NCBI GenBank assembly: GCA_030267565.1
Contig: BRXU01000047.1
Location: 558,001 to 622,000, forward strand
Reading direction: 5' to 3'
Length of the DNA: 64,000 bases
Source of the DNA: Pleodorina starrii
Taxonomy: Eukaryota > Chlorophyta > Chlorophyceae > Chlamydomonadales > Volvocaceae
The notes under the pieces are model-generated. The model did no database searches. It saw nothing but the letters and a program-made list of their open reading frames with translations, and was not told the DNA's origin. A program made the position numbers and the translations under genes. This document shows positions 7,050-38,340 of the stretch, piece by piece (the stretch's first letter is position 1; each line of letters opens with the position of its first letter).

Positions 7050-10000
7050 GGCCCAGCTCCGCGCCGCGCCCTCCCTGCAGCCGCTGCTCTCCGCGCCCGC
7101 GGTGCCCATCCGGCGTGAATGAAGCGGCGTGCACTCTGCGTAACAAGAGCGGCGGTGCTGGTCCTGACGCCAAACCACCGCCCGCACCCCGGAAACTGTG
7201 ACAACACGCGCCTTACCCCTGTGATGCGGAAATGGGTGCACCCACGGCCGGCTCCGCGCCGCCCCCTCCCGTGCAGCCGCTACTCTCCGCGCCCGCGCGC
7301 GGTGCCCATCCGGCATGAATGAAGCGGCGTGCACTCTGCGTAACAAGAGCGGCGGTGCTGGTCCTGACGCCAAACCACCGCCCGCACCCCGGAAACTGTG
7401 ACAACGCGCGCCTTACCCCTGTGATGCGGAAATGGGTGCACCCAGGGCCGGCTCCGCGCCGCCCCCTCACGTGCAGCCGCTGCTCTCCGCGCCCGCGCGC
7501 GGTGCCCATCCGGCGTGAATGAAGCGGCGTGCACTCTGCGTAACAAGAGCGGCGGTGCTGATCCTGACGCCAAACCACCGCCCGCACCCCGGAAACTGTG
7601 ACAACGCGCGCCTTACCCCTGTGATGCTGAAATGGGTGCACCCAGGGCCGGCTCCGCGCCGCCCCCTCCCGTGCAGCCGCTGCTCTCCGCGCCCGCGCGC
7701 GGTGCCCATCCGGCATGAATGAAGCGGCGTGCACTCTGCGTAACAAGAGCGGCGGTGCTGGTCCTGACGCCAAACCACCGCCCGCACCCCGGAAACTGTG
7801 ACAACACGCGCCTTACCCCTGTGATGCGGAAATGGGTGCACCCAGGGCCGGCTCCGCGCCGCCCCCTCCCGTACAGCCCCTGCTCTTCACGCCTGCGCGC
7901 GGTGCCCATCCAGCGTGAATGAAGCGGCGTGCACTCTGCGTAACAAGAGCGGCGGTGCTGGTCCTGACGCCAAACCACCGCCCGCACCCCGGAAACTGTG
8001 ACAACACGCGCCTTACCCCTGTGATGCTGAAATGGGTGCACCCAGGGCCGGCTCCGCGCCGCCCCCTCCCGTGCAGCCGCTGCTCTCCGCGCCCGCGCGC
8101 GGTGCCCATCCGGCATGAATGAAGCGGCGTGCACTCTGCGTAACAAGAGCGGCGGTGCTGGTCCTGACGCCAAACCACCGCCCGCACCCCGGAAACTGTG
8201 ACAACACGCGCCTTACCCCTGTGATGCGGAAATGGGTGCACCCAGGGCCGGCTCCGCGCCGCCCCCTCCCGTGCAGCCGCTACTCTCCGCGCCCGCGCGC
8301 GGTGCCCATCCGGCATGAATGAAGCGGCGTGCACTCTGCGTAACAAGAGCGGCGGTGCTGGTCCTGACGCCAAACCACCGCCCGCACCCCGGAAACTGTG
8401 ACAACGCGCGCCTTACCCCTGTGATGCTGAAATGGGTGCACCCAGGGCCGGCTCCGCGCCGCGCCCTCCCTGCAGCCGCTGCTCTCCGCGCCCGCGGTGC
8501 CCATCCGGCGTGAATGAAGCGGCGTGCACTCTGCGTAACAAGAGCGGCGGTGCTGGTCCTGACGCCAAACCACCGCCCGCACCCCGGAAACTGTGACAAC
8601 ACGCGCCTTACCCCTGTGATGCGGAAATGGGTGCACCCACGGCCGGCTCCGCGCCGCCCCCTCCCGTGCAGCCGCTGCTCTCCGCGCCCGCGCGCGGTGC
8701 CCATCCGGCATGAATGAAGCGGCGTGCACTCTGCGTAACAAGAGCGGCGGTGCTGGTCCTGACGCCAAACCACCGCCCGCACCCCGGAAACTGTGACAAC
8801 GCGCGCCTTACCCCTGTGATGCGGAGATGGGTGCACCCAGGGCCGGCTCCGCGCCGCCCCCTCACGTGCAGCCGCTGCTCTCCGCGCCCGCGCGCGGTGC
8901 CCATCCGGCGTGAATGAAGCGGCGTGCACTCTGCGTAACAAGAGCGGCGGTGCTGATCCTGACGCCAAACCACCGCCCGCACCCCGGAAACTGTCACAAC
9001 ACGCGCCTTACCCCTGTGATGCGGAAATGGGTGCACCCACGGCCGGCTCCGCGCCGCCCCCTCCCGTGCAGCCGCTACTCTCCGCGCCCGCGCGCGGTGC
9101 CCATCCGGCATGAATGAAGCGGCGTGCACTCTGCGTAACAAGAGCGGCGGTGCTGGTCCTGACGCCAAACCACCGCCCGCACCCCGGAAACTGTGACAAC
9201 ACGCGCCTTACCCCTGTGATGCGGAAATAGGTGCACCCAGGGCCGGCTCCGCGCCGCCCCCTCCCGTGCAGCCGCTACTCTCCGCGCCCGCGCGCGGTGC
9301 CCATCCGGCATGAATGAAGCGGCGTGCACTCTGCGTAACAAGAGCGGCGGTGCTGGTCCTGACGCCAAACCACCGCCCGCACCCCGGAAACTGTGACAAC
9401 ACGCGCCTTACCCCTGTGATGCGGAAATAGGTGCACCCAGGGCCGGCTCCGCGCCGCCCCCTCCCGTGCAGCCGCTGCTCTCCGCGCCCGCGCGCGGTGC
9501 CCATCCGGCATGAATGAAGCGGCGTGCACTCTGCGTAACAAGAGCGGCGGTGCTGGTCCTGACGCCAAACCACCGCCCGCACCCCGGAAACTGTGACAAC
9601 GCGCGCCTTACCCCTGTGATGCGGAAATGGGTGCACCCAGGGCCGGCTCCGCGCCGCCCCCTCACGTGCAGCCGCTGCTCTCCGCGCCCGCGCGCGGTGC
9701 CCATCCGGCGTGAATGAAGCGGCGTGCACTCTGCGTAACAAGAGCGGCGGTGCTGATCCTGACGCCAAACCACCGCCCGCACCCCGGAAACTGTGACAAC
9801 ACGCGCCTTACCCCTGTGATGCGGAAATGGGTGCACCCACGGCCGGCTCCGCGCCGCCCCCTCCCGTGCAGCCGCTACTCTCCGCGCCCGCGCGCGGTGC
9901 CCATCCGGCATGAATGAAGCGGCGTGCACTCTGCGTAACAAGAGCGGCGGTGCTGGTCCTGACGCCAAACCACCGCCCGCACCCCGGAAACTGTGACAAC

Positions 10001-13000
10001 ACGCGCCTTACCCCTGTGATGCGGAAATAGGTGCACCCAGGGCCGGCTCCGCGCCGCCCCCTCCCGTGCAGCCGCTGCTCTCCGCGCCCGCGCGCGGTGC
10101 CCATCCGGCATGAATGAAGCGGCGTGCACTCTGCGTAACAAGAGCGGCGGTGCTGGTCCTGACGCCAAACCACCGCCCGCACCCCGGAAACTGTGACAAC
10201 GCGCGCCTTACCCCTGTGATGCTGAAATGGGTGCACCCAGGGCCGGCTCCGCGCCGCCCCCTCCCGTGCAGCCGCTGCTCTCCGCGCCCGCGCGCGGTGC
10301 CCATCCGGCATGAATGAAGCGGCGTGCACTCTGCGTAACAAGAGCGGCGGTGCTGGTCCTGACGCCAAACCACCGCCCGCACCCCGGAAACTGTGACAAC
10401 GCGCGCCTTACCCCTGTGATGCGGAAATGGGTGCACCCAGGGCCGGCTCCGCGCCGCCCCCTCCCGTGCAGCCGCTGCTCTCCGCGCCCGCGTGCGGTGC
10501 CCATCCGGCGTGAATGAAGCGGCGTGCACTCTGCGTAACAAGAGTGGCGGTGCTGGTCCTGACGCCAAACCACCGCCCGCACCCCGGAAACTGTGACAAC
10601 GCGCGCCTTACCCCTGTGATGCTGAAATGGGTGCACCCAGGGCCGGCTCCGCGCCGCCCCCTCCCGTGCAGCCGCTGCTCTCCGCGCCCGCGCGCGGTGC
10701 CCATCCGGCATGAATGAAGCGGCGTGCACTCTGCGTAACAAGAGCGGCGGTGCTGGTCCTGACGCCAAACCACCGCCCGCACCCCGGAAACTGTGACAAC
10801 GCGCGCCTTACCCCTGTGATGCGGAAATGGGTGCACCCAGGGCCGGCTCCGCGCCGCCCCCTCCCGTGCAGCCGCTGCTCTCCGCGCCCGCGTGCGGTGC
10901 CCATCCGGCGTGAATGAAGCGGCGTGCACTCTGCGTAACAAGAGTGGCGGTGCTGGTCCTGACGCCAAACCACCGCCCGCACCCCGGAAACTGTGACAAC
11001 GCGCGCCTTACCCCTGTGATGCTGAAATGGGTGCACCCAGGGCCGGCTCCGCGCCGCCCCCTCACGTGCAGCCGCTGCTCTCCGCGCCCGCGCGCGGTGC
11101 CCATCCGGCATGAATGAAGCGGCGTGCACTCTGCGTAACAAGAGCGGCGGTGCTGGTCCTGACGCCAAACCACCGCCCGCACCCCGGAAACTGTGACAAC
11201 ACGCGCCTTACCCCTGTGATGCGGAAATGGGTGCACCCAGGGCCGGCTCCGCGCCGCCCCCTCCCGTACAGCCCCTGCTCTCCACGCCTGCGCGCGGTGC
11301 CCATCCAGCGTGAATGAAGCGGCGTGCACTCTGCGTAACAAGAGCGGCGGTGCTGGTCCTGACGCCAAACCACCGCCCGCACCCCGGAAACTGTGACAAC
11401 GCGCGCCTTACCCCTGTGATGCGGAAATGGGTGCACCCAGGGCCGGCTCCGCGCCGCCCCCTCCCGTGCAGCCGCTGCTCTCCGCGCCCGCGCGCGGTGC
11501 CCATCCGGCATGAATGAAGCGGCGTGCACTCTGCGTAACAAGAGCGGCGGTGCTGGCCCTGACGCCAAACCACCGCCCGCACCCCGGAAACTGTGACAAC
11601 GCGCGCCTTACCCCTGTGATGCTGAAATGGGTGCACCCAGGGCCGGCTCCGCGCCGCCCCCTCCCGTGCAGCCGCTGCTCTCCGCGCCCGCGCGCGGTGC
11701 CCATCCGGCATGAATGAAGCGGCGTGCACTCTGCGTAACAAGAGCGGCGGTGCTGGTCCTGACGCCAAACCACCGCCCGCACCCCGGAAACTGTGACAAC
11801 ACGCGCCTTACCCCTGTGATGCGGAAATGGGTGCACCCACGGCCGGCTCCGCGCCGCCCCCTCCCGTGCAGCCGCTACTCTCCGCGCCCGCGCGCGGTGC
11901 CCATCCGGCTTGAATGAAGCGGCGTGCACTCTGCGTAACAAGAGCGGCGGTGCTGGTCCTGACGCCAAACCACCGCCCGCACCCCGGAAACTGTGACAAC
12001 GCGCGCCTTACCCCTGTGATGCGGAAATGGGTGCACCCAGGGCCGGCTCCGCGCCGCCCCCTCACGTGCAGCCCCTGCTCTTCACGCCTGCGCGCGGTGC
12101 CCATCCAGCGTGAATGAAGCGGCGTGCACTCTGCGTAACAAGAGCGGCGGTGCTGGTCCTGACGCCAAACCACCGCCCGCACCCCGGAAACTGTGACAAC
12201 ACGCGCCTTACCCCTGTGATGCTGAAATGGGTGCACCCAGGGCCGGCTCCGCGCCGCCCCCTCCCGTGCAGCCGCTGCTCTCCGCGCCCGCGCGCGGTGC
12301 CCATCCGGCATGAATGAAGCGGCGTGCACTCTGCGTAACAAGAGCGGCGGTGCTGGTCCTGACGCCAAACCACCGCCCGCACCCCGGAAACTGTGACAAC
12401 ACGCGCCTTACCCCTGTGATGCGGAAATGGGTGCACCCAGGGCCGGCTCCGCGCCGCCCCCTCCCGTGCAGCCGCTACTCTCCGCGCCCGCGCGCGGTGC
12501 CCATCCGGCATGAATGAAGCGGCGTGCACTCTGCGTAACAAGAGCGGCGGTGCTGGTCCTGACGCCAAACCACCGCCCGCACCCCGGAAACTGTGACAAC
12601 GCGCGCCTTACCCCTGTGATGCTGAAATGGGTGCACCCAGGGCCGGCTCCGCGCCGCGCCCTCCCTGCAGCCGCTGCTCTCCGCGCCCGCGGTGCCCATC
12701 CGGCGTGAATGAAGCGGCGTGCACTCTGCGTAACAAGAGCGGCGGTGCTGGTCCTGACGCCAAACCACCGCCCGCACCCCGGAAACTGTGACAACACGCG
12801 CCTTACCCCTGTGATGCGGAAATGGGTGCACCCACGGCCGGCTCCGCGCCGCCCCCTCCCGTGCAGCCGCTGCTCTCCGCGCCCGCGCGCGGTGCCCATC
12901 CGGCATGAATGAAGCGGCGTGCACTCTGCGTAACAAGAGCGGCGGTGCTGGTCCTGACGCCAAACCACCGCCCGCACCCCGGAAACTGTGACAACGCGCG

Positions 13001-16000
13001 CCTTACCCCTGTGATGCGGAGATGGGTGCACCCAGGGCCGGCTCCGCGCCGCCCCCTCACGTGCAGCCGCTGCTCTCCGCGCCCGCGCGCGGTGCCCATC
13101 CGGCGTGAATGAAGCGGCGTGCACTCTGCGTAACAAGAGCGGCGGTGCTGATCCTGACGCCAAACCACCGCCCGCACCCCGGAAACTGTGACAACACGCG
13201 CCTTACCCCTGTGATGCGGAAATGGGTGCACCCACGGCCGGCTCCGCGCCGCCCCCTCCCGTGCAGCCGCTACTCTCCGCGCCCGCGCGCGGTGCCCATC
13301 CGGCATGAATGAAGCGGCGTGCACTCTGCGTAACAAGAGCGGCGGTGCTGGTCCTGACGCCAAACCACCGCCCGCACCCCGGAAACTGTGACAACACGCG
13401 CCTTACCCCTGTGATGCGGAAATAGGTGCACCCAGGGCCGGCTCCGCGCCGCCCCCTCCCGTGCAGCCGCTACTCTCCGCGCCCGCGCGCGGTGCCCATC
13501 CGGCATGAATGAAGCGGCGTGCACTCTGCGTAACAAGAGCGGCGGTGCTGGTCCTGACGCCAAACCACCGCCCGCACCCCGGAAACTGTGACAACACGCG
13601 CCTTACCCCTGTGATGCGGAAATAGGTGCACCCAGGGCCGGCTCCGCGCCGCCCCCTCCCGTGCAGCCGCTGCTCTCCGCGCCCGCGCGCGGTGCCCATC
13701 CGGCATGAATGAAGCGGCGTGCACTCTGCGTAACAAGAGCGGCGGTGCTGGTCCTGACGCCAAACCACCGCCCGCACCCCGGAAACTGTGACAACGCGCG
13801 CCTTACCCCTGTGATGCGGAAATGGGTGCACCCAGGGCCGGCTCCGCGCCGCCCCCTCACGTGCAGCCGCTGCTCTCCGCGCCCGCGCGCGGTGCCCATC
13901 CGGCGTGAATGAAGCGGCGTGCACTCTGCGTAACAAGAGCGGCGGTGCTGATCCTGACGCCAAACCACCGCCCGCACCCCGGAAACTGTGACAACACGCG
14001 CCTTACCCCTGTGATGCGGAAATGGGTGCACCCACGGCCGGCTCCGCGCCGCCCCCTCCCGTGCAGCCGCTACTCTCCGCGCCCGCGCGCGGTGCCCATC
14101 CGGCATGAATGAAGCGGCGTGCACTCTGCGTAACAAGAGCGGCGGTGCTGGTCCTGACGCCAAACCACCGCCCGCACCCCGGAAACTGTGACAACACGCG
14201 CCTTACCCCTGTGATGCGGAAATAGGTGCACCCAGGGCCGGCTCCGCGCCGCCCCCTCCCGTGCAGCCGCTGCTCTCCGCGCCCGCGCGCGGTGCCCATC
14301 CGGCATGAATGAAGCGGCGTGCACTCTGCGTAACAAGAGCGGCGGTGCTGGTCCTGACGCCAAACCACCGCCCGCACCCCGGAAACTGTGACAACGCGCG
14401 CCTTACCCCTGTGATGCTGAAATGGGTGCACCCAGGGCCGGCTCCGCGCCGCCCCCTCCCGTGCAGCCGCTGCTCTCCGCGCCCGCGCGCGGTGCCCATC
14501 CGGCATGAATGAAGCGGCGTGCACTCTGCGTAACAAGAGCGGCGGTGCTGGTCCTGACGCCAAACCACCGCCCGCACCCCGGAAACTGTGACAACGCGCG
14601 CCTTACCCCTGTGATGCGGAAATGGGTGCACCCAGGGCCGGCTCCGCGCCGCCCCCTCCCGTGCAGCCGCTGCTCTCCGCGCCCGCGTGCGGTGCCCATC
14701 CGGCGTGAATGAAGCGGCGTGCACTCTGCGTAACAAGAGTGGCGGTGCTGGTCCTGACGCCAAACCACCGCCCGCACCCCGGAAACTGTGACAACGCGCG
14801 CCTTACCCCTGTGATGCTGAAATGGGTGCACCCAGGGCCGGCTCCGCGCCGCCCCCTCCCGTGCAGCCGCTGCTCTCCGCGCCCGCGCGCGGTGCCCATC
14901 CGGCATGAATGAAGCGGCGTGCACTCTGCGTAACAAGAGCGGCGGTGCTGGTCCTGACGCCAAACCACCGCCCGCACCCCGGAAACTGTGACAACGCGCG
15001 CCTTACCCCTGTGATGCGGAAATGGGTGCACCCAGGGCCGGCTCCGCGCCGCCCCCTCCCGTGCAGCCGCTGCTCTCCGCGCCCGCGTGCGGTGCCCATC
15101 CGGCGTGAATGAAGCGGCGTGCACTCTGCGTAACAAGAGTGGCGGTGCTGGTCCTGACGCCAAACCACCGCCCGCACCCCGGAAACTGTGACAACGCGCG
15201 CCTTACCCCTGTGATGCTGAAATGGGTGCACCCAGGGCCGGCTCCGCGCCGCCCCCTCACGTGCAGCCGCTGCTCTCCGCGCCCGCGCGCGGTGCCCATC
15301 CGGCATGAATGAAGCGGCGTGCACTCTGCGTAACAAGAGCGGCGGTGCTGGTCCTGACGCCAAACCACCGCCCGCACCCCGGAAACTGTGACAACACGCG
15401 CCTTACCCCTGTGATGCGGAAATGGGTGCACCCAGGGCCGGCTCCGCGCCGCCCCCTCCCGTACAGCCCCTGCTCTCCACGCCTGCGCGCGGTGCCCATC
15501 CAGCGTGAATGAAGCGGCGTGCACTCTGCGTAACAAGAGCGGCGGTGCTGGTCCTGACGCCAAACCACCGCCCGCACCCCGGAAACTGTGACAACGCGCG
15601 CCTTACCCCTGTGATGCGGAAATGGGTGCACCCAGGGCCGGCTCCGCGCCGCCCCCTCCCGTGCAGCCGCTGCTCTCCGCGCCCGCGCGCGGTGCCCATC
15701 CGGCATGAATGAAGCGGCGTGCACTCTGCGTAACAAGAGCGGCGGTGCTGGCCCTGACGCCAAACCACCGCCCGCACCCCGGAAACTGTGACAACGCGCG
15801 CCTTACCCCTGTGATGCTGAAATGGGTGCACCCAGGGCCGGCTCCGCGCCGCCCCCTCCCGTGCAGCCGCTGCTCTCCGCGCCCGCGCGCGGTGCCCATC
15901 CGGCATGAATGAAGCGGCGTGCACTCTGCGTAACAAGAGCGGCGGTGCTGGTCCTGACGCCAAACCACCGCCCGCACCCCGGAAACTGTGACAACACGCG

Positions 16001-19000
16001 CCTTACCCCTGTGATGCGGAAATGGGTGCACCCACGGCCGGCTCCGCGCCGCCCCCTCCCGTGCAGCCGCTACTCTCCGCGCCCGCGCGCGGTGCCCATC
16101 CGGCTTGAATGAAGCGGCGTGCACTCTGCGTAACAAGAGCGGCGGTGCTGGTCCTGACGCCAAACCACCGCCCGCACCCCGGAAACTGTGACAACGCGCG
16201 CCTTACCCCTGTGATGCGGAAATGGGTGCACCCAGGGCCGGCTCCGCGCCGCCCCCTCACGTGCAGCCGCTGCTCTCCGCGCCCGCGCGCGGTGCCCATC
16301 CGGCATGAATGAAGCGGCGTGCACTCTGCGTAACAAGAGCGGCGGTGCTGGTCCTGACGCCAAACCACCGCCCGCACCCCGGAAACTGTGACAACGCGCG
16401 CCTTACCCCTGTGATGCTGAAATGGGTGCACCCAGGGCCGGCTCCGCGCCGCCCCCTCCCGTGCAGCCGCTACTCTCCGCGCCCGCGCGCGGTGCCCATC
16501 CGGCTTGAATGAAGCGGCGTGCACTCTGCGTAACAAGAGCGGCGGTGCTGGTCCTGACGCCAAACCACCGCCCGCACCCCGGAAACTGTGACAACACGCG
16601 CCTTACCCCTGTGATGCGGAAATAGGTGCACCCAGGGCCGGCTCCGCGCCGCCCCCTCCCGTGCAGCCGCTACTCTCCGCGCCCGCGCGCGGTGCCCATC
16701 CGGCATGAATGAAGCGGCGTGCACTCTGCGTAACAAGAGCGGCGGTGCTGGTCCTGACGCCAAACCACCGCCCGCACCCCGGAAACTGTGACAACGCGCG
16801 CCTTACCCCTGTGATGCTGAAATGGGTGCACCCAGGGCCGGCTCCGCGCCGCGCCCTCCCTGCAGCCGCTGCTCTCCGCGCCCGCGGTGCCCATCCGGCG
16901 TGAATGAAGCGGCGTGCACTCTGCGTAACAAGAGCGGCGGTGCTGGTCCTGACGCCAAACCACCGCCCGCACCCCGGAAACTGTGACAACACGCGCCTTA
17001 CCCCTGTGATGCGGAAATGGGTGCACCCACGGCCGGCTCCGCGCCGCCCCCTCCCGTGCAGCCGCTGCTCTCCGCGCCCGCGCGCGGTGCCCATCCGGCA
17101 TGAATGAAGCGGCGTGCACTCTGCGTAACAAGAGCGGCGGTGCTGGTCCTGACGCCAAACCACCGCCCGCACCCCGGAAACTGTGACAACACGCGCCTTA
17201 CCCCTGTGATGCGGAAATAGGTGCACCCAGGGCCGGCTCCGCGCCGCCCCCTCCCGTGCAGCCGCTGCTCTCCGCGCCCGCGCGCGATGCCCATCCGGCA
17301 TGAATGAAGCGGCGTGCACTCTGCGTAACAAGAGCGGCGGTGCTGGTCCTGACGCCAAACCACCGCCCGCACCCCGGAAACTGTGACAACGCGCGCCTTA
17401 CCCCTGTGATGCGGAAATGGGTGCACCCAGGGCCGGCTCCGCGCCGCCCCCTCACGTGCAGCCGCTGCTCTCCGCGCCCGCGCGCGGTGCCCATCCGGCG
17501 TGAATGAAGCGGCGTGCACTCTGCGTAACAAGAGCGGCGGTGCTGATCCTGACGCCAAACCACCGCCCGCACCCCGGAAACTGTGACAACACGCGCCTTA
17601 CCCCTGTGATGCGGAAATGGGTGCACCCACGGCCGGCTCCGCGCCGCCCCCTCCCGTGCAGCCGCTACTCTCCGCGCCCGCGCGCGGTGCCCATCCGGCG
17701 TGAATGAAGCGGCGTGCACTCTGCGTAACAAGAGCGGCGGTGCTGGTCCTGACGCCAAACCACCGCCCGCACCCCGGAAACTGTGACAACACGCGCCTTA
17801 CCCCTGTGATGCGGAAATGGGTGCACCCACGGCCGGCTCCGCGCCGCCCCCTCCCGTGCAGCCGCTGCTCTCCGCGCCCGCGCGCGGTGCCCATCCGGCA
17901 TGAATGAAGCGGCGTGCACTCTGCGTAACAAGAGCGGCGGTGCTGGTCCTGACGCCAAACCACCGCCCGCACCCCGGAAACTGTGACAACACGCGCCTTA
18001 CCCCTGTGATGCGGAAATAGGTGCACCCAGGGCCGGCTCCGCGCCGCCCCCTCCCGTGCAGCCGCTGCTCTCCGCGCCCGCGCGCGATGCCCATCCGGCA
18101 TGAATGAAGCGGCGTGCACTCTGCGTAACAAGAGCGGCGGTGCTGGTCCTGACGCCAAACCACCGCCCGCACCCCGGAAACTGTGACAACGCGCGCCTTA
18201 CCCCTGTGATGCGGAAATGGGTGCACCCAGGGCCGGCTCCGCGCCGCCCCCTCACGTGCAGCCGCTGCTCTCCGCGCCCGCGCGCGGTGCCCATCCGGCG
18301 TGAATGAAGCGGCGTGCACTCTGCGTAACAAGAGCGGCGGTGCTGATCCTGACGCCAAACCACCGCCCGCACCCCGGAAACTGTGACAACACGCGCCTTA
18401 CCCCTGTGATGCGGAAATGGGTGCACCCACGGCCGGCTCCGCGCCGCCCCCTCCCGTGCAGCCGCTACTCTCCGCGCCCGCGCGCGGTGCCCATCCGGCA
18501 TGAATGAAGCGGCGTGCACTCTACGTAACAAGAGCGGCGGTGCTGGACCTGACGCCAAACCACCGCCCGCACCCCGGAAACTGTGACAACGCGCGCCTTA
18601 CCCCTGTGATGCGGAAATGGGTGCACCCAGGGCCGGCTCCGCGCCGCCCCCTCCCGTGCAGCCGCTGCTCTCCGCGCCCGCGTGCGGTGCCCATCCGGCG
18701 TGAATGAAGCGGCGTGCACTCTGCGTAACAAGAGTGGCGGTGCTGGTCCTGACGCCAAACCACCGCCCGCACCCCGGAAACTGTGACAACGCGCGCCTTA
18801 CCCCTGTGATGCGGAAATGGGTGCACCCAGGGCCGGCTCCGCGCCGCCCCCTCCCGTGCAGCCGCTGCTCTCCGCGCCCGCGCGCGGTGCCCATCCGGCG
18901 TGAATGAAGCGGCGTGCACTCTGCGTAACAAGAGCGGCGGTGCTGGACCTGACGCCAAACCACCGCCCGCACCCCGGAAACTTTGACAACGCGCGCCTTA

Positions 19001-19431
19001 CCCCTGTGATGCTGAAATGGGTGCACCCAGGGCCGGCTCCGCGCCGCCCCCTCCCGTACAGCCCCTGCTCTCCGCGCCCGCGGTGCCCATCCAGCGTGGA
19101 TGAAGCGGCGTGCACTCTGCGTAACAAGAGCGGCGGTGCTGGCCCTGACACCAAACCACCGCCCGCACCCCAGAAACTGTGACAACGCGCGCCTTACCCC
19201 TGTGATGCGGAAATGGGTGCACCCAGGGCCGGCTCCGCGCCGCCCCCTCCCGTGCAGCCGCTGCTCTCCGCGCCCGCGTGCGGTGCCCATCCGGCGTGAA
19301 TGAAGCGGCGTGCACTCTGCGTAACAAGAGCGGCGGTGCTGATCCTGACGCCAAACCACCGCCCGCACCCCGGAAACTGTGACAACGCGCGCCTTACCCC
19401 TGTGATGCGGAAATGGGTGCACCCAGGGCCA
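7050..19431 (+). repeat. 200-bp satellite array, ~62 units, with 4,195-bp higher-order period
   Basis: Tandem GC-rich units of 200 bp, each containing GAAGCGGCGTGCACTCTGCG, CCGGAAACTGTGACAAC and GGGTGCACCCA. A 195-bp variant with a 5-bp deletion near the GCCCGCGGTGCCC motif ends at about 7118, 8513, 12708 and 16903. The last three are exactly 4,195 bp apart, and blocks 8319-12513 and 12514-16708 match unit by unit with very few differences. Inside the third block, an 800-bp repeat is marked by the rare GCGATGCCC variant at about 17286 and 18086. The array begins in a partial unit and stops abruptly at GGGCC/AGATCTCC. The many 67- and 186-codon open frames are by-products of the repeat and not genes. 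Confidence 0.95.
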
Positions 19432-27133: not shown

Positions 27134-27367
27134 TAGGGTGGCTATTTAATAATAATAATAAATAGTAATAATAATACGCCCGACAGAGCCGAGGCGTGGA
27201 TTATGGGAGCAGGAGGGGTGGGGTGTCGGGTTGCCCCGATCCCAGGCCTCTCCCGCTACCGCGGGTGGCTATTTATCTTATTCTGCTGAGTATCTGCGGC
27301 CAGAGATGCCCCTGGCTCAGAAGCGCTGAGAGTATCTGTCAGGATCTGTCTACGCGATCCGAGGGGA
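27134..27367 (+). mobile_element. hAT-like MITE, third copy, interrupted and 3'-incomplete
   Basis: Begins AGGGTGGCTATTTA and resumes at 27263 with a repeat of that sequence followed by TCTTATTCTGCTGAGTATCT. From there it tracks the MITE at 31666-31911 closely (GGCTCAGAAGCGCTGAGAGT, CAGGATCTGTCTA). The interruption is the Dualen fragment at 27149-27262. The distal end is lost where a hairpin fragment of the ~1.17 kb element begins at 27368. Confidence 0.7.
27149..27262 (-). mobile_element. Very short Dualen 3' UTR insertion with 13-bp target duplication
   Basis: On the minus strand this is the last ~110 bp of the Dualen 3' UTR (matching 63870-63985, including the CCGCGG palindrome and CACGCCTCGGC), followed by an ATT-type tail. 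It is flanked by GGGTGGCTATTTA at 27136-27148 and 27263-27275. This is a textbook extremely 5'-truncated target-primed insertion. Confidence 0.85.
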
Positions 27368-28422: not shown

Positions 28423-28665
28423 CGTTACGGGAGCCGGCGACTCGTCCATCCTCTCGTTTCACAGTCAGGAGAGAGGCGGCGGCGGAACTGACGGACCGAT
28501 CTCCCCTGAGGCGGCAGACGCGGCTGCCCAGTTCAAAGTCCCAGTGGATGCAAATGGAGTTGACGTAGCAGGCCTGGCAGCAGGCGCCCGCGTCGGGCTG
28601 GGTCGAGGTGGCCAGGGCGGCCGAGTCGTTGCCGTAGGTAGCACCGTATTGCAGCAAAGAACAGT
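28423..28665 (-). CDS. Matrix gene exon: second PAN/apple-like Cys-rich domain
   Basis: A 243-bp exon, phase 1 at both ends: acceptor TTCTTCAG before 28665, donor GTGGGT after 28423. It encodes DCSLLQYGATYGNDSAA, then GACCQACYVNSICIHWDF and RVCRLRG. The spacing of Cys residues (C, CC-x2-C, C, C) and the aromatic IHWDF core fit the PAN/apple class of extracellular binding domains. It matches the exon at 50095-50343 nearly residue for residue over the Cys-rich core. It is separated from the next exon by a 367-bp intron. Confidence 0.75.
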
Positions 28666-29000: not shown

Positions 29001-29831
29001 GAATTTGTTGTGAGGTTTCCCAACCGGCAACGAGCGGCCCCGGGCCCCGGGCGGGCAAGTAGATGCATCAACAGATATACCTGATGGCGACAGCAATTCG
29101 CGGGCTGCAACTAGCTAGGTGAAGCATGTGCCCTAGACACCCCAAGAAATACTGTCGCTTGCATCCATATTGTCTGACACAATCCGCTGCAAGAGGAGGT
29201 GATGTGGCCCCACCGAGCGAGTCCCACCCTTGAATTTGAGGTAGGTAGGAAAGGCGACAATGCATTTCAGTATATATACATACGCAGCTGGCCAGCAACC
29301 CCGAATGCAGCTGCCTGCGTGCTGCGACCCAGAACGGAATGCTGTAAATAGCCAGCAGTTTAGACCCATCCGATCTAGGTGGCCGACTGCGTTTTCCAGG
29401 TTGCCGGCCGAGGACCGGCGACCAATACACACGACAGCCCGCAGCTAGCAGCTGCTGCATGTATACGTCTCTGCTATACTGACGAATACCCGACCCGCCA
29501 TTCTGATGCAGCGTGCTAGCGGAACCCGTCCCTTACTGGCCGACGCCCCTCTGTAATAACAAGATGTGACTGGGTTGCTCAGATCACAACATTATTATTA
29601 GCATCTATCCCACAGCACGGCTCACCATCATTTACAGCTCACTGACGGACGGGTTGACACTGAAATAATGGGGCGCACTTTGGCGCAAGTGCAACTCGCT
29701 CTAGGCGATCGGCCCCACCACCCACGCACCTGAAAAGGGGCTGTGCTTGCGCGGAGAGATGTTGCTGCTCCACCCGAGCCACAGACGGGAGGTGATCCAG
29801 CCCGGCTGCAAAAACGTCGAACGCACCATGC

Positions 29832-32443
29832 CCGCCGGTATGCCGTAAACCTGAAGCTCGGATATCTGAAGTTCGGAGACGGCAGAGGCGTTGCCAAAAT
29901 TCTGGAGGGTGATGTACCGGCCCGTGACCGGTGGCTCAAGGTCTATCGTAAGAACACTTGCAGTGGAACTAGGCCCTTCCATTTTGAAAACGAGCTCATT
30001 CAGCGTGATTTGGTTGGCAGTTAGGCTGTTGCTGACGAGGGCTCCGCCCACACGAAATTCCGCATTCGCAGTACGTTCGCCGCAGCAATCGCGCCGGTTG
30101 TAATAAACGATCTTTGAGACGGTGAATAGGCTGCCCAAATCGATGGATAACCAGGGAGCTCGGTCACCGCTGTCGCTTCGGAATATCTCAACTCCTGTAT
30201 TTGAAACTGTACCATCAAGAGCGAACTGAGGGCCAAATGATTTGAGGTCGGAAAGAGCGACTGATGACGCGAATGCGAGCTTGCCGATAGCCACATTTGA
30301 TGCTGTTGAATGCGGCGATCGCTGTGGTGGTAGAGGTCTTGGTGGGACGGGTGAGGGTGGTGGCGGGCTGCTGGGTGGAGGAGGAGGCGGGGGAGGCCTG
30401 GGCGGCAAAGTTGAGGATAGTGGGCTTGGTGGGAACAGGGACGGTGGTGGGCTTGGCGGAGGCGGAGAAGGTGGCAGAGGGCTTGGGGGGACGGGTGAGG
30501 GTGGTGGCGGGCTGGGTGGGGTTGGTGGGGGGGGAGGGCTGGGTGGTAAAGGTGAAGGTGGTGGGCCTGGTGGGACTGGGGACGGTGGAGGGCTGGGTGG
30601 AGGTGGAGAAGGTGGTAGTGGGCTTGGCTGGACGGGTGAGGGTGGTGGCGGGCTGGGTGGAGGTGGTGGTGGGGGAGGGCTGGGTGGTAAAGGTGACGGC
30701 GGTGGTCTTGGTGGCACCGGGGACGGTGGCGGGCTTGGGGGGGCTGGAGAGGGTGGCAGAGGGCTTGGTGGGACGGGTGAGGGTGGTGGCGGGCTGGGTG
30801 GAGGTGGTGGTGGGGGAGGGCTGGGTGGTAAAGGTGAAGGTGGTGGGCTTGGTGGGACCGGGGACGGTGGAGGGCTAGGTGGAGGTGGAGAAGGTGGTAG
30901 TGGGCTTGGCGGGACAGGTGAGGGTGGTGGCGGGCTGGGTGGAGGTGGTGGTGGGGGAGGGCTGGGTGGTAAAGGTGAAGGTGGTGGGCTTGGTGGCACC
31001 GGGGACGGTGGAGGGCTAGGTGGATGTGGAGAAGGTGGTAGTGGGCTTGGCGGGACAGGTGAGGGTGGTGGCGGGCTGGGTGGTGGTGGTGGTGGGGGAG
31101 GGCTGGGTGGTAAAGGTGAAGGTGGTGGGCTTGGTGGCACCGGGGACGGTGGCGGGCTTGGGGGGGCTGGAGAGGGTGGCAGAGGGCTTGGCGGGACGGG
31201 TGAGGGTGGTGGCGGGCTGGGTGGAGGTGGTGGTGGGGGAGGGCTGGGTGGTAAAGGTGAAGGTGGTGGACTTGGTGGCACCGGGGACGGTGGCGGGCTT
31301 GGGGGAGGTGGAGAAGGTGGCAGAGGGCTTGGCGGGACGGGTGAGGGTGGTGGCGGGCTGGGTGGAGGTGGTGGTGGGGGAGGGCTGGGTGGTAAAGGTG
31401 AAGGAGGTGGGCTTGGTGGCACCGGGGACGGTGGCGGGCTTGGGGGGGCTGGAGAGGGTGGCAGAGGGCTTGGTGGGACGGGTGAGGGTGGTGGCGGGCT
31501 GGGTGGAGGTGGTGGTGGGGGAGGGCTGGGTGGTAAAGGTGAAGGTGGTGGGCTTGGTGGCACCGGGGACGGTGGCGGGCTTGGGGGGGCTGGAGAGGGT
31601 GGCAGAGGGCTTGGGGGGACGGGTGAGGGTGGTGGCGGGCTGGGTGGAGGTGGCGGTGGGGGAGGCAGGGTGGCTATCTTATTTTGCTGAGTATCTACGG
31701 CCGGAGATACTCCTGGCTCAAAAGTGCTGAGAGTAACTGTCAGGATCTGTCTAGGAGGCGATATTCCCGGCTAAACACGGCCCCGGGAGATATCATGCCC
31801 ACCTGTGAGGCCGGATTATCTAAACCTTCAGCTTTTTGCACGGCAAAAGTATCTTCCGATTTCCAAAAATTTCCCCCAAATATATATTCATATCTTAAGA
31901 TAGCCACCCTGGGGGGAGGGCTGGGTGGTAAAGGTGAAGGCGTTGGCGGGCTGGGTAGAGGTGATGGTGGGGGAGGACTAGGTGGCATGGGAGGGGATGG
32001 TGAGGGGGGAGTAGGAGGGGATGGTGGTGGCGGCGGAGGCAGGCCGGGCACATCGACGTAGGCCCAAGTGTGGTCGGTCCGCAGCAGGAACGTGTTGTTG
32101 GGGCCGTAAAGCACTGCACCGACGTATGCGCGGCCCGCAGTATTGATCACTTCAAGCACCAGCAGGTTCTGGCCCGCTGGCAGATCGAGCTGCACCGGTG
32201 GTCCGCCATAACCATGTCTGGTCCCGTTGATGAGGCGTCTCCCGTTTAGGATTGTATTGGCGAAATCGTCAGCACGTAAGTAGAGACTGGCGTTTATGAC
32301 AGGGGCGGGTACAATGAACGACTTGTAAAAGTACAGGTAACTCCTAGGCGCACTATCTATACCGGAGAAGCTTGTCGCGATCCAGACGGGTCTGGGATCC
32401 TCGGGAAGGCTGGCGAAGGAGAGGTTGACAGAGGTGTAAACAC
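29832..32443 (-). CDS. Matrix gene exon: Gal-binding-like domain, Pro-rich linker, F5/8C discoidin-like domain
   Basis: The exon opens in phase 1 after acceptor CATGCAG. First comes a Gal-binding-like domain (about 32440-32050: [34 protein letters not shown]). Next is a linker of well over 400 residues made of [16 protein letters not shown] repeats, typical of hydroxyproline-rich volvocine wall proteins. Last is an F5/8C domain (about 30300-29850: [47 protein letters not shown]). The linker is interrupted by a hAT-like MITE at 31666-31911. Upstream and downstream frames differ by exactly the 254 bp of MITE plus duplicated target. The exon leaves in phase 1 at 29832 through a GC donor (GCGG/GCATGG), needed to join the next exon in frame. 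The product is presumably secreted; no signal peptide is in view because the gene start is not. Confidence 0.7.
30480..31650 (-). repeat. 141-bp tandem repeats encoding the Pro-rich linker
   Basis: About eight units of 141 bp (47 codons), marked by recurring GGGTGGTAAAGGTGA on the plus strand at about 30546, 30687, 30826, 30967, 31108, 31249, 31391 and 31530. Units differ by a few substitutions. The long Gly-rich and Val-rich open frames on the plus strand here are antisense shadows. Confidence 0.85.
31666..31911 (+). mobile_element. hAT-like MITE inserted in the Pro-rich exon
   Basis: 246 bp with perfect terminal inverted repeats starting CAGGGTGGCTATCTTA and an 8-bp target duplication GGGGGAGG at 31658-31665 and 31912-31919. 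An 8-bp duplication with a CAGGG terminus is characteristic of the hAT superfamily. It has no coding capacity. Read on the minus strand (gene sense), the frame ends inside it. A GT dinucleotide at 31907-31906 directly after an AGG codon and a CAG acceptor at 31689-31687 would, if spliced, leave an open in-frame join. Confidence 0.9.
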
Positions 32444-36299: not shown

Positions 36300-38340
36300 C
36301 TTGAGCCCCGCATCCATGTCCATCTCCTCCCCCACCCCGCCCCACTCCATGCTCCGCCCCGCCCTCCTCCATGCTCCATGCTCCATGCTCCATCTCCTGC
36401 CCCGCCTCACTCCATGCTCCGTGCCGCTCCACCCCATGCTCCACCCCGCCTTGCCCCATGCTCCGTGCCGCCTTGCCCTATGCTCTGCACTGCTCCACCC
36501 CATGCTCCGCGCCGCTCTGCCTCGCCCCATGCTCCACCCCGCCCTGCTCCATGCTCCGTCCCGCTCCACCCTATGCTCCGCCTCGCTCGGCCTCGCTGCC
36601 ACCCCCTTCATCCGTGTTACTTTTCGGGGCGTCCGCCCCATTCACCCCACGTCAAGCCCACCCACATCATCACCTTCCATTCACCCCGCCCCGCTCCACT
36701 CCACCCACTTTCCTGGCGCAGTGTAACCTCCCCACCACCACCCCTGTCGAAAAGGCCGTCCTCACCCGCTTTCGCTTAACCCGCTGCTTCCTTGATGACC
36801 TCTTCACCCTCAATAAATCCGCTCCGCCCCATGCTCCGCGCCGCTCCACCTCACCCCATGGTCCGCCCCGGCCCGCCTCGCCCCATGCTTTATCCCGCCC
36901 CGCCTCACCCCATGCCGCCCCGCTCTGCCTCGCCCCATGCTCCGCCCCGCTCTACCTCAAACCATGCTCCACCCCACTCCGTCTCGTCCCATGCCCCCCC
37001 CCGCCTTGCCCATGCTCCGTCCCGCTCTGCCTCGCCCCATGCTCCACTCCGCCCCACCCCAGGGTGTTGTTCCGCCGTGCCTTGTGCAAGAGCACTGCTC
37101 CCCACGGCGCCGCGGCGTGCACTATCATGCCTGACCTCGCTCCACCCCAGGCCCGGCCCTGCCTCACCCCCTGCTCGCCCCGCTCTGCCTCACCGCATGG
37201 TCCGCCCCACGTTGCCTCGTCCTATGCTCCACCCCGCTCCGCCTCGCCCCATGCTCCGCCCCGTCCCGTGTCGCCCCATGCTTCACGCCGGTCCGCCCCA
37301 TGCTTTGTGCCACTCCGCCTCACCCCCATGCTCCGCTTCACCCCGCCTCACCGCATGCTCTGCCCCGCTCCGCCTCGCCCCGCCCCATGCTCCACCCCAC
37401 CTCGCCCCGCCCCATGGTCCATGCCGCCCCGCCCGATGCTCCGCTCCAGGGTTGCTATCTTCCTTGACGGGAGTATCTACGGGCTCAGATATTCGTTGCT
37501 CAAATGTTCCAAAAACTTCTATGGATGACGAGAAGTTTTTTGGCTGGGAAGGCCCAAAAGTATCTGTGTGCAGTGGCCAGATATCAACCATGACCATGTG
37601 CAATGTAGGAACTTGTTTTCAGTATTATCCAGCACAGTTGCTCGGAGCCGAAAACATCTTTATCGCCGTCGGGAGGGAGCCGGCGACGTGATTTTATGGG
37701 AAATGGGCTTCCGAAGTTCTATGGATGCTCAGATTGTATGGCCAGAATTCTCCCAAAAATTTCCTATTGGACACTCAAAATCGTAAAAAAACTTCTATAA
37801 AATTTTCAAGTTTTTGGGCAAATAGATATTTTTATCCTAAGATAGCAACCCTGCTCCGCTCTGCCTCGCCCCATACTCCACCCAGCCCCGCCCCGCCCCA
37901 TGCTCCACCCCGTCCCGCCTTGCTCCGACCTTGTGATCGAGCATTTGTGCGGAGTGGTGTGGCGTGTGGCCGTCACTGCCTGCCTGCCTGCCTGCCCGCC
38001 CCATGCTCCACCCCGCCCCGCCTCGCCCCATGCTCCACGCCGCTCCGCCCCATACTCTGCGGCACTCCGCGCCATGCTTCGCGCCCAATGACCGGCGTCC
38101 GCCGCCGTCTGCGTTGTCCCGCCCACTGTTCCCTGCGGCGCCGTGGTGTGCACTATCGTGCCTCACCTCGCTCCTCCCAATGCCCGGCCCTGCCTCACCC
38201 CATGCTCGGCCTGCTGTGCAGGGTGGAGCTCGTCCTATGCTCCATCCTGCCCCGCCGTGCCCCATGCTTGGCTGCCTGCCTGTCTGGCTGCCAGCCTGCC
38301 TGGCTGCCAGCCTGCCTGGCTGCCAGCCTGCCTGCCTTGT
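36300..38340 (+). repeat. Degenerate CCCCATGCTCCGCCCCGC-type repeat field
   Basis: About 2 kb built from short degenerate units around CCCCATGCTCC, GCCCCGCCTCG and GCTCCACCCC. Two longer related blocks each contain GGCGCCG(C/T)GG(C/T)GTGCACTATC (about 37097 and 38138). A stretch of GCCTGCCTG / CTGCCAGCCTGC closes it. A MITE at 37447-37853 interrupts it. Long His/Pro/Ala/Ser frames arise from the repeat. Confidence 0.85.
37447..37853 (+). mobile_element. hAT-like MITE, 407 bp
   Basis: Terminal inverted repeats CAGGGTTGCTATCTT / AAGATAGCAACCCTG and an 8-bp target duplication CTCCGCTC at 37439-37446 and 37854-37861. The ends differ from the MITE at 31666-31911 by one base in the first 15, and the interior is mostly different, so it belongs to the same family but another subfamily. 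No coding capacity. Confidence 0.9.

Follow-up and report, generated by a model that had tools for sequence, protein, structure and literature searches.

Maize elements of the Ds1/Ds kind are reportedly spliced from exons, as the work of Dennis in 1988, Wessler in 1991 and Giroux in 1994 is said to have described. PMC3260210 and PMC5432752 name such splicing from exons for hAT elements, with maize Ds1 as the case in point. PMC9860276 describes introners with TIRs and TSDs (section 7), among which the Aureococcus type brings its own donor and acceptor and adds 12 bp, of which 4 are introner and 8 TSD, and names green algae among the introner-bearing lineages; a term search of the main text returned no 'Chlamydomonas', 'hAT' or 'MITE'. 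Neither introners in volvocine algae nor the MITE family treated here were found in the open-licence literature searched, which consisted mostly of titles and abstracts.

The window analysed here is a stretch of 64,000 nt (bases 558001-622000 of contig 47) from the Pleodorina starrii genome (136 Mb, 95 contigs), and all positions without a contig or locus label refer to it. The element at 31666-31911 is confirmed as a real hAT-type MITE inside a real exon (Table 1). On balance, the locus is probably a young MITE insertion that disrupts its gene, with at best leaky, Ds1-like splicing, and not an introner.

Table 1. Positions of the element, the host gene and the candidate splice sites in the window
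Feature	Position	Strand	Remarks
hAT-type MITE, 246 bp	31666-31911	minus (gene-sense orientation)	perfect 16-bp TIRs
Left TIR arm	31666-31681	plus	16 nt, 100% complementary to right arm
Right TIR arm, gene-sense element start	31896-31911	minus	16 nt, 100% complementary to left arm
TSD copy 1, gggggagg	31658-31665	none	8 bp
TSD copy 2, gggggagg	31912-31919	none	8 bp
Host exon: N-terminal domain, Pro-rich linker, F5/8 type C domain	29730-32443	minus	putative borders; splice borders by paralog comparison
Downstream exon, weak PAN-like match	28423-28665	minus	PF00024, E=0.0047, below cut-off; putative borders
Last exon: second copy of N-type domain, stop codon	27586-28055	minus	putative start; N-domain query match, E=4.8e-7
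Donor GT of the first-pass annotation (AGG/GTGGCT), element nt 5	31906-31907	minus	score 5.9
Better donor (CAG/GTGGGC), element nt 110	31801-31802	minus	score 7.1, highest donor in element
Acceptor CAG (CTCAG/C), element nt 223-225	31687-31689	minus	score 7.4, top in-element acceptor
Host-linker acceptor (CCACCTCCACCCAG/C)	31640-31641	minus	score 11.2, top-scoring acceptor near element

Materials and methods

Of 80 fetched loci of the family, those that were unique and intact and had a TSD match of at least 7/8 were kept, which gave 51 copies (41/60 and 10/20); the fetched loci left out were duplicates, truncated copies and copies without a TSD. Splice sites were surveyed in 41 copies of exactly 246 nt, which are a different set from the 41/60 TSD loci. 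Site scores were obtained with a small weight matrix of the gene family (16 donors and 22 acceptors, many of them paralogous) that was scored on itself, and on which real donors lie at 6.7-12.4 (median 11.0) and real acceptors at 4.6-14.0. Donor rows numbered 28 for the gene family, and the one without GT at the expected place was left out; the remaining 27 represent ~20 distinct sites, since some loci overlap. The chance level of frame-restoring GT..AG pairs was obtained for this copy's frame by shuffling whole elements and counting pairs of at least 40 nt, and in a six-class test (both orientations in each of three phases) by keeping the TIRs and shuffling the core, with pairs of at least 50 nt. 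Pfam was used to scan 143 ORFs in the flanks of the copies, with 4 ORFs of L001 left out. Long open frames around the copies were scored for 150 of 347, 421 and 277 candidates, a survey that is confounded by tandem arrays.

Results

The TSD reads CCTCCCCC in gene sense on both flanks of the MITE. The TIRs start with CAGGG, which we take to be hAT-like, and the 246 bp of the element are far below transposase length. A 246-bp hAT-like MITE with an 8-bp TSD in the Pro-rich linker had been proposed in the first-pass annotation, and the element and the TSD were found as claimed. In the orientation opposite to the gene (plus strand), the element has one frame open across 82/82 codons, and many further copies of the family also keep this 82-codon frame open.

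The MITE splits the host exon (29730-32443). The F5/8 type C domain of this exon was recognised by Pfam (PF00754, E=1.5e-11), its N-terminal domain gave no Pfam match, and the Pro-rich linker between them is an array of ~141-bp repeats. With the element and one TSD copy removed in silico, 776 codons are free of stops (32427-29845), which bears out the earlier claims that the MITE shifts the frame and that the gene was continuous before insertion; with the element retained, the first in-frame stop is the TGA at 31742-31740 on the minus strand. The linker is too repetitive for the exact empty site to be aligned against paralogs. At nine paralogous loci, neighbouring matches to the N-domain and the F5/8C domain report open frames of equal length (346, 416, 417, 777, 847, 877, 1075, 1181 and 1318 aa), each pair being taken as one frame from the equal lengths and read directly at L085 only. 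The same open frame reported by both domains at these nine loci suggests that the linker is normally one exon. A protein database search with a paralog returned 459 candidates, none at E<=0.001, and so yielded neither a gene model from an annotation nor an empty site from a further species.

The window contains further repeats. A MITE fragment (element nt 159-237, 90% identical) lies at 27274-27352, ~230 bp past the stop codon of the gene. A related element of ~407 bp with variant TIRs (CAGGGTTGCTATCTT) lies at 37447-37853 in a C-rich minisatellite region, and a tandem array at 7056-19430, with 62 copies of a 200-bp unit and 97% matches, makes up a 12.4-kb satellite.

The first-pass annotation had further claimed that the element carries its own frame-restoring GT..AG pair, and its details (GT at 31907-31906, CAG at 31689-31687, a length of 221 nt and the leftover codons) are all correct; the pair is in frame and stop-free. 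The further step, that this 221-nt intron (31907-31687) is used and makes the element a ready-made intron adding 33 nt, or 11 extra codons, is very unlikely. Its acceptor is the best and its donor the second best in the element, but the donor AGG/GTGGCT scores below the weakest real donor (6.7) and lacks the +5 G that is present in 27/27 donor rows of the gene family, the CAG is polymorphic among the copies, and the leftover bases, as read by eye, contain a stop in each of the other two sense phases, so that removal of 221 nt is not a general property of the element.

The better in-frame pair is 31802-31687 (CAG/GTGGGC..CTCAG), which shares its acceptor with the 221-nt intron, is stop-free and would remove 116 nt, leaving 138 nt in the mRNA (130 of element and 8 of TSD, 46 codons). 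The scores of this donor and acceptor, together with the missing +5 G at GTGGCT, make it the more plausible in-frame intron. Both of its sites lie inside the element and rank low within the range of real sites. When sites up to 120 nt upstream and up to 200 nt downstream were allowed, ten more pairs were found here, none of them combining GTNNG with YAG.

In this copy's frame, the element holds 23 in-element, frame-restoring, stop-free GT..AG pairs of at least 40 nt, against a mean of 2.2 in shuffled elements, 51% of which have at least one such pair and 0.3% at least 23. When any GT..AG pair was allowed, the family consensus had at least one pair in 4/6 orientation-phase classes and the shuffles in a mean of 4.4/6, so that having some frame-restoring pair is not above chance; the high count in this class reflects that the element happens to be open there. 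Under the strict pattern GTNNG..YAG, the consensus can be rescued in 1/6 classes (sense, phase 2, with introns at element nt 110-165 and 110-225), against 0.83 in the shuffles, 49% of which have at least one rescuable class and 26% at least two. The rescue capacity of the element is at chance level, though this class is unusually permissive. A frame-restoring GT..AG pair was consequently rejected as evidence in itself, the shuffles reaching 4.4/6 classes.

These results also bear on productive splicing of the Ds1 kind, by which most transcripts would lose 31802-31687 and the protein would gain 46 linker residues. Of the six classes, sense phase 2 alone lets the best donor and the best acceptor of the element be joined in frame with no stop, and both the window copy and L095 belong to it; a Pro-rich linker should presumably tolerate an insertion, and the downstream exon pieces compared below are intact. 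Both sites are nevertheless low in the real range, the host acceptor with the higher score (31641-31640) does not match the frame from the donor at 31802, and the in-element acceptor is CAG in 21/41 copies only. Splicing of this kind in most transcripts is conceivable but unlikely, and we continue to favour a disruptive insertion that is leaky at best.

An internal 21-mer of the element (up to 3 mismatches) gave 220 matches in the genome and the TIR 16-mer 383 occurrences, with 0 for the control in each case. The TSD is perfect (8/8) at 40/60 fetched loci; L011 and L019 have 7/8, L002 has no TSD, and the TSD sequences vary from copy to copy among the listed family copies. Among the 41 copies of the splice-site survey, the donor context CAGGTGGGCA stands at nt 110 in 38, and nt 223-225 read CAG in 21, CGG in 19 and CCG in 1. 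An acceptor CAG private to the window copy was rejected, the polymorphism being family-wide. Splice sites that are conserved or supplied by the TSD, as looked for in an introner, were not found in these copies, given the CAG in 21/41 and the varying TSDs; nor does removal keep the frame open regardless of gene and phase, since GTNNG..YAG rescue was obtained in 1/6 classes and no in-element rescue at L035. As far as tested, the family thus does not appear introner-like in its behaviour, and the introner-like effect proposed in the earlier annotation is not borne out, with GTNNG..YAG rescue in a single class and no in-element rescue at L035.

In the search for an autonomous hAT partner with the same ends, two places in the genome were found to encode a hAT dimerisation domain, and a family copy adjoins one of them (C21). 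This neighbour is an ordinary full-length MITE-like copy, with 86% identity along its whole length. At C1:476259-483462, two exact TIRs in inverted orientation and 7.2 kb apart may mark a longer or autonomous relative. One-strand clusters of the MITE among the scored matches, at C15:1965750-1990536 (13), C51:420008-423878 (4) and C16:1357704-1359616 (2), look as if captured into satellite-like repeats.

Homology or motifs place 3 of the 51 intact copies inside host exons, and these criteria may have missed others. All three are in sense, and two are in the single rescuable class (binomial P ~0.07 if random, noticed after the fact). Besides the window copy, L035 (C1:9109080-9109325) is placed inside an exon, in sense and phase 1, because the protein read across its joined flanks aligns to paralogs with no break: of 37 matches, 2 of which are the locus itself, 13 run stop-free over residues 7-194 or more, and among the others are partial, split or stop-bearing ones. 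Reading into this copy stops at element nt 15-17, and the exit frame has a TGA at the element/TSD border; no in-element GT..AG pair restores the frame, and 21 pairs using flanking exon sites restore it but delete coding sequence. The third copy, L095 (C6:3199735-3199980), lies in what we take from its motifs to be a kinase-like exon, since DVKPANVLL precedes the element and KLCDFGL follows it immediately; it is in sense and phase 2, as is the window copy. Pfam gave no match at L095, and a further search found the locus itself only. A copy at C46:654730-654975 is flanked by frames of 768 and 3092 aa in the rescuable class and by a 3577-aa antisense frame; it is probably in a repeat region, and could be a fourth exonic copy.

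Other copies lie elsewhere. Antisense copies were found in a retrotransposon frame with Tf2-1 SH3 and chromo domains (L092), adjoining a weak Dam-like match (L047), adjoining a PEPCK exon (L055), and 5 residues past an XendoU match (L019); the last is probably in an intron, since the XendoU match resumes several hundred bases further along in another frame. L026 is near a YGGT piece and L039 near a pherophorin piece (PF12499), which together with the Pro-rich cell-surface genes fits a volvocine green alga, and L054, which had no Pfam match, is presumably an Argonaute-like intron copy. Pfam on the pooled flank ORFs gave 6 families from 71 ORFs and 4 from 72, the first set, pooled over copies, including matches to P450, ankyrin and PAP2. 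A coding score from codon usage told training exons read in frame from those read off frame so badly that insertion sites could not be classified with it. Since some of the few placed copies are in or beside the retrotransposon frame and the PEPCK, YGGT and XendoU pieces, nothing suggests that the family targets exons or the sense orientation exclusively.

The exonic copies are the point at which a filter on insertion phase could be seen. Insertion would be random and exon copies would persist only in sense phase 2, where the conserved CAG/GTGGGC donor, together with the CTCAG acceptor that roughly half the family has, would remove a 116-nt intron in frame, which would make the family an intermediate between MITE and introner in a volvocine alga. 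We regard such intron seeding as rather improbable.

The gene belongs to a large paralog family: the N-domain has 47 genome matches and the F5/8C domain 69, and both counts include the window gene. A close copy, L085 (C12), has 877 open codons over the same domains with a linker free of the MITE, and its 2 kb of downstream sequence share 94.7% identity with the window. Upstream of the N-domain exon, the C12 paralogs carry a piece of the element (nt 4-80, 77% identical), at L085:14-88 and also at L062-L064. In two paralogs, at ~800-830 of L069 and ~1060-1090 of L071, element-like ends (CAGGGTGGCTAT) stand directly 3' of intron donor sites; blastn found no full element copies in these introns.

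Three downstream exon pieces (586, 245 and 469 nt) show 0 gap openings in 1300 nt between the window and L085, and the intron shows 9 gap openings in 1059 nt at 92.6% identity. The exon pieces differ by 16 synonymous and 13 nonsynonymous codon differences. The dN/dS is 0.009/0.073 (~0.13) for the F5/8C piece and 0.018/0.057 (~0.32) for the last-exon piece, and the PAN piece, which is short, has 3 nonsynonymous and 0 synonymous differences (dS 0). Polarised with other paralogs, 9 synonymous and 5 nonsynonymous changes fall on the window branch and 2 synonymous and 5 nonsynonymous on the paralog branch, with 8 unresolved. Decay of the gene downstream of the MITE, which would speak against splicing of the element, was not seen in the three pieces. 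The window MITE differs from L002 at 2/246 positions and from L003 at 4/246, and set against the gene dS of 0.073 and 0.057 this indicates that the insertion is probably younger than the gene duplication. Most of the exon changes probably predate the insertion, so that these data show just that no gross decay followed it, and with 2/246 differences from L002 the insertion may be too young for the decay comparison to have power.

The same comparison bears on whether redundancy or silence of this copy of the gene preceded a neutral insertion, with pseudogenisation just starting. The size of the paralog family and the close copy on C12 would fit this, but no further lesion was seen in the compared exon pieces and the window branch is constrained, and we consider it quite unlikely.

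Discussion

The reading that we favour, a young disruptive insertion, would run as follows. A non-autonomous hAT-type element recently inserted, by the usual reaction that leaves an 8-bp TSD, into the linker exon of what is probably a volvocine-type cell-surface gene, and shifted its frame. Because of this shift, the majority of transcripts probably terminate at the in-element stop (31742) or undergo mis-splicing. Moderately good cryptic signals, chiefly CAG/GTGGGC at 31802 and CTCAG at 31687, would allow 116 nt to be removed in frame, and for this reason some residual full-length protein with 46 extra linker codons may be made, as in maize Ds1 alleles. The insertion, the TSD, the frame shift, the empty-site frame, the MITE-free paralogs and the site scores are directly seen, and we infer that the gene carrying the MITE is transcribed, that its product is truncated and that its splicing may be leaky. 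The splice potential would be incidental, owing to chance in the sequence and to the phase in which the element inserted, and not an adaptation of the family. Counting against this reading are the 23 frame-restoring pairs, a number reached by 0.3% of the shuffles, the intact downstream exon pieces, and the presence of 2/3 host-exon copies in the single rescuable class.

Should exon copies survive in the rescuable class alone, a filter on insertion would precede any improvement of splice sites, and this would be a route from transposon to introner. If they are not, the locus is a warning that frame-restoring GT..AG pairs come almost free in a 246-bp element, as the shuffles (4.4/6) indicate.

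In comparison with known systems, the family resembles ordinary algal and plant hAT MITE families in its CAGGG TIR start, its 8-bp TSD and its hundreds of copies, and nothing in it is clearly different from them. It shares with introners a DNA-transposon-like structure with TIRs and an 8-bp TSD, a candidate donor and acceptor that both lie within the element, and a residue of element and TSD that would stay in the mRNA. Introners, however, are families found as annotated introns, whereas here the mRNA would keep 33 or 138 nt, other phases bring stops, roughly half the copies lack the acceptor and some are located outside host exons. Maize Ds1 is likewise a short non-autonomous element with TIRs in an exonic position, and it offers several donors and acceptors according to PMC5432752. 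Splicing is experimental in Ds1 and predicted here, where in-frame rescue by GTNNG..YAG is confined to one orientation-phase class.
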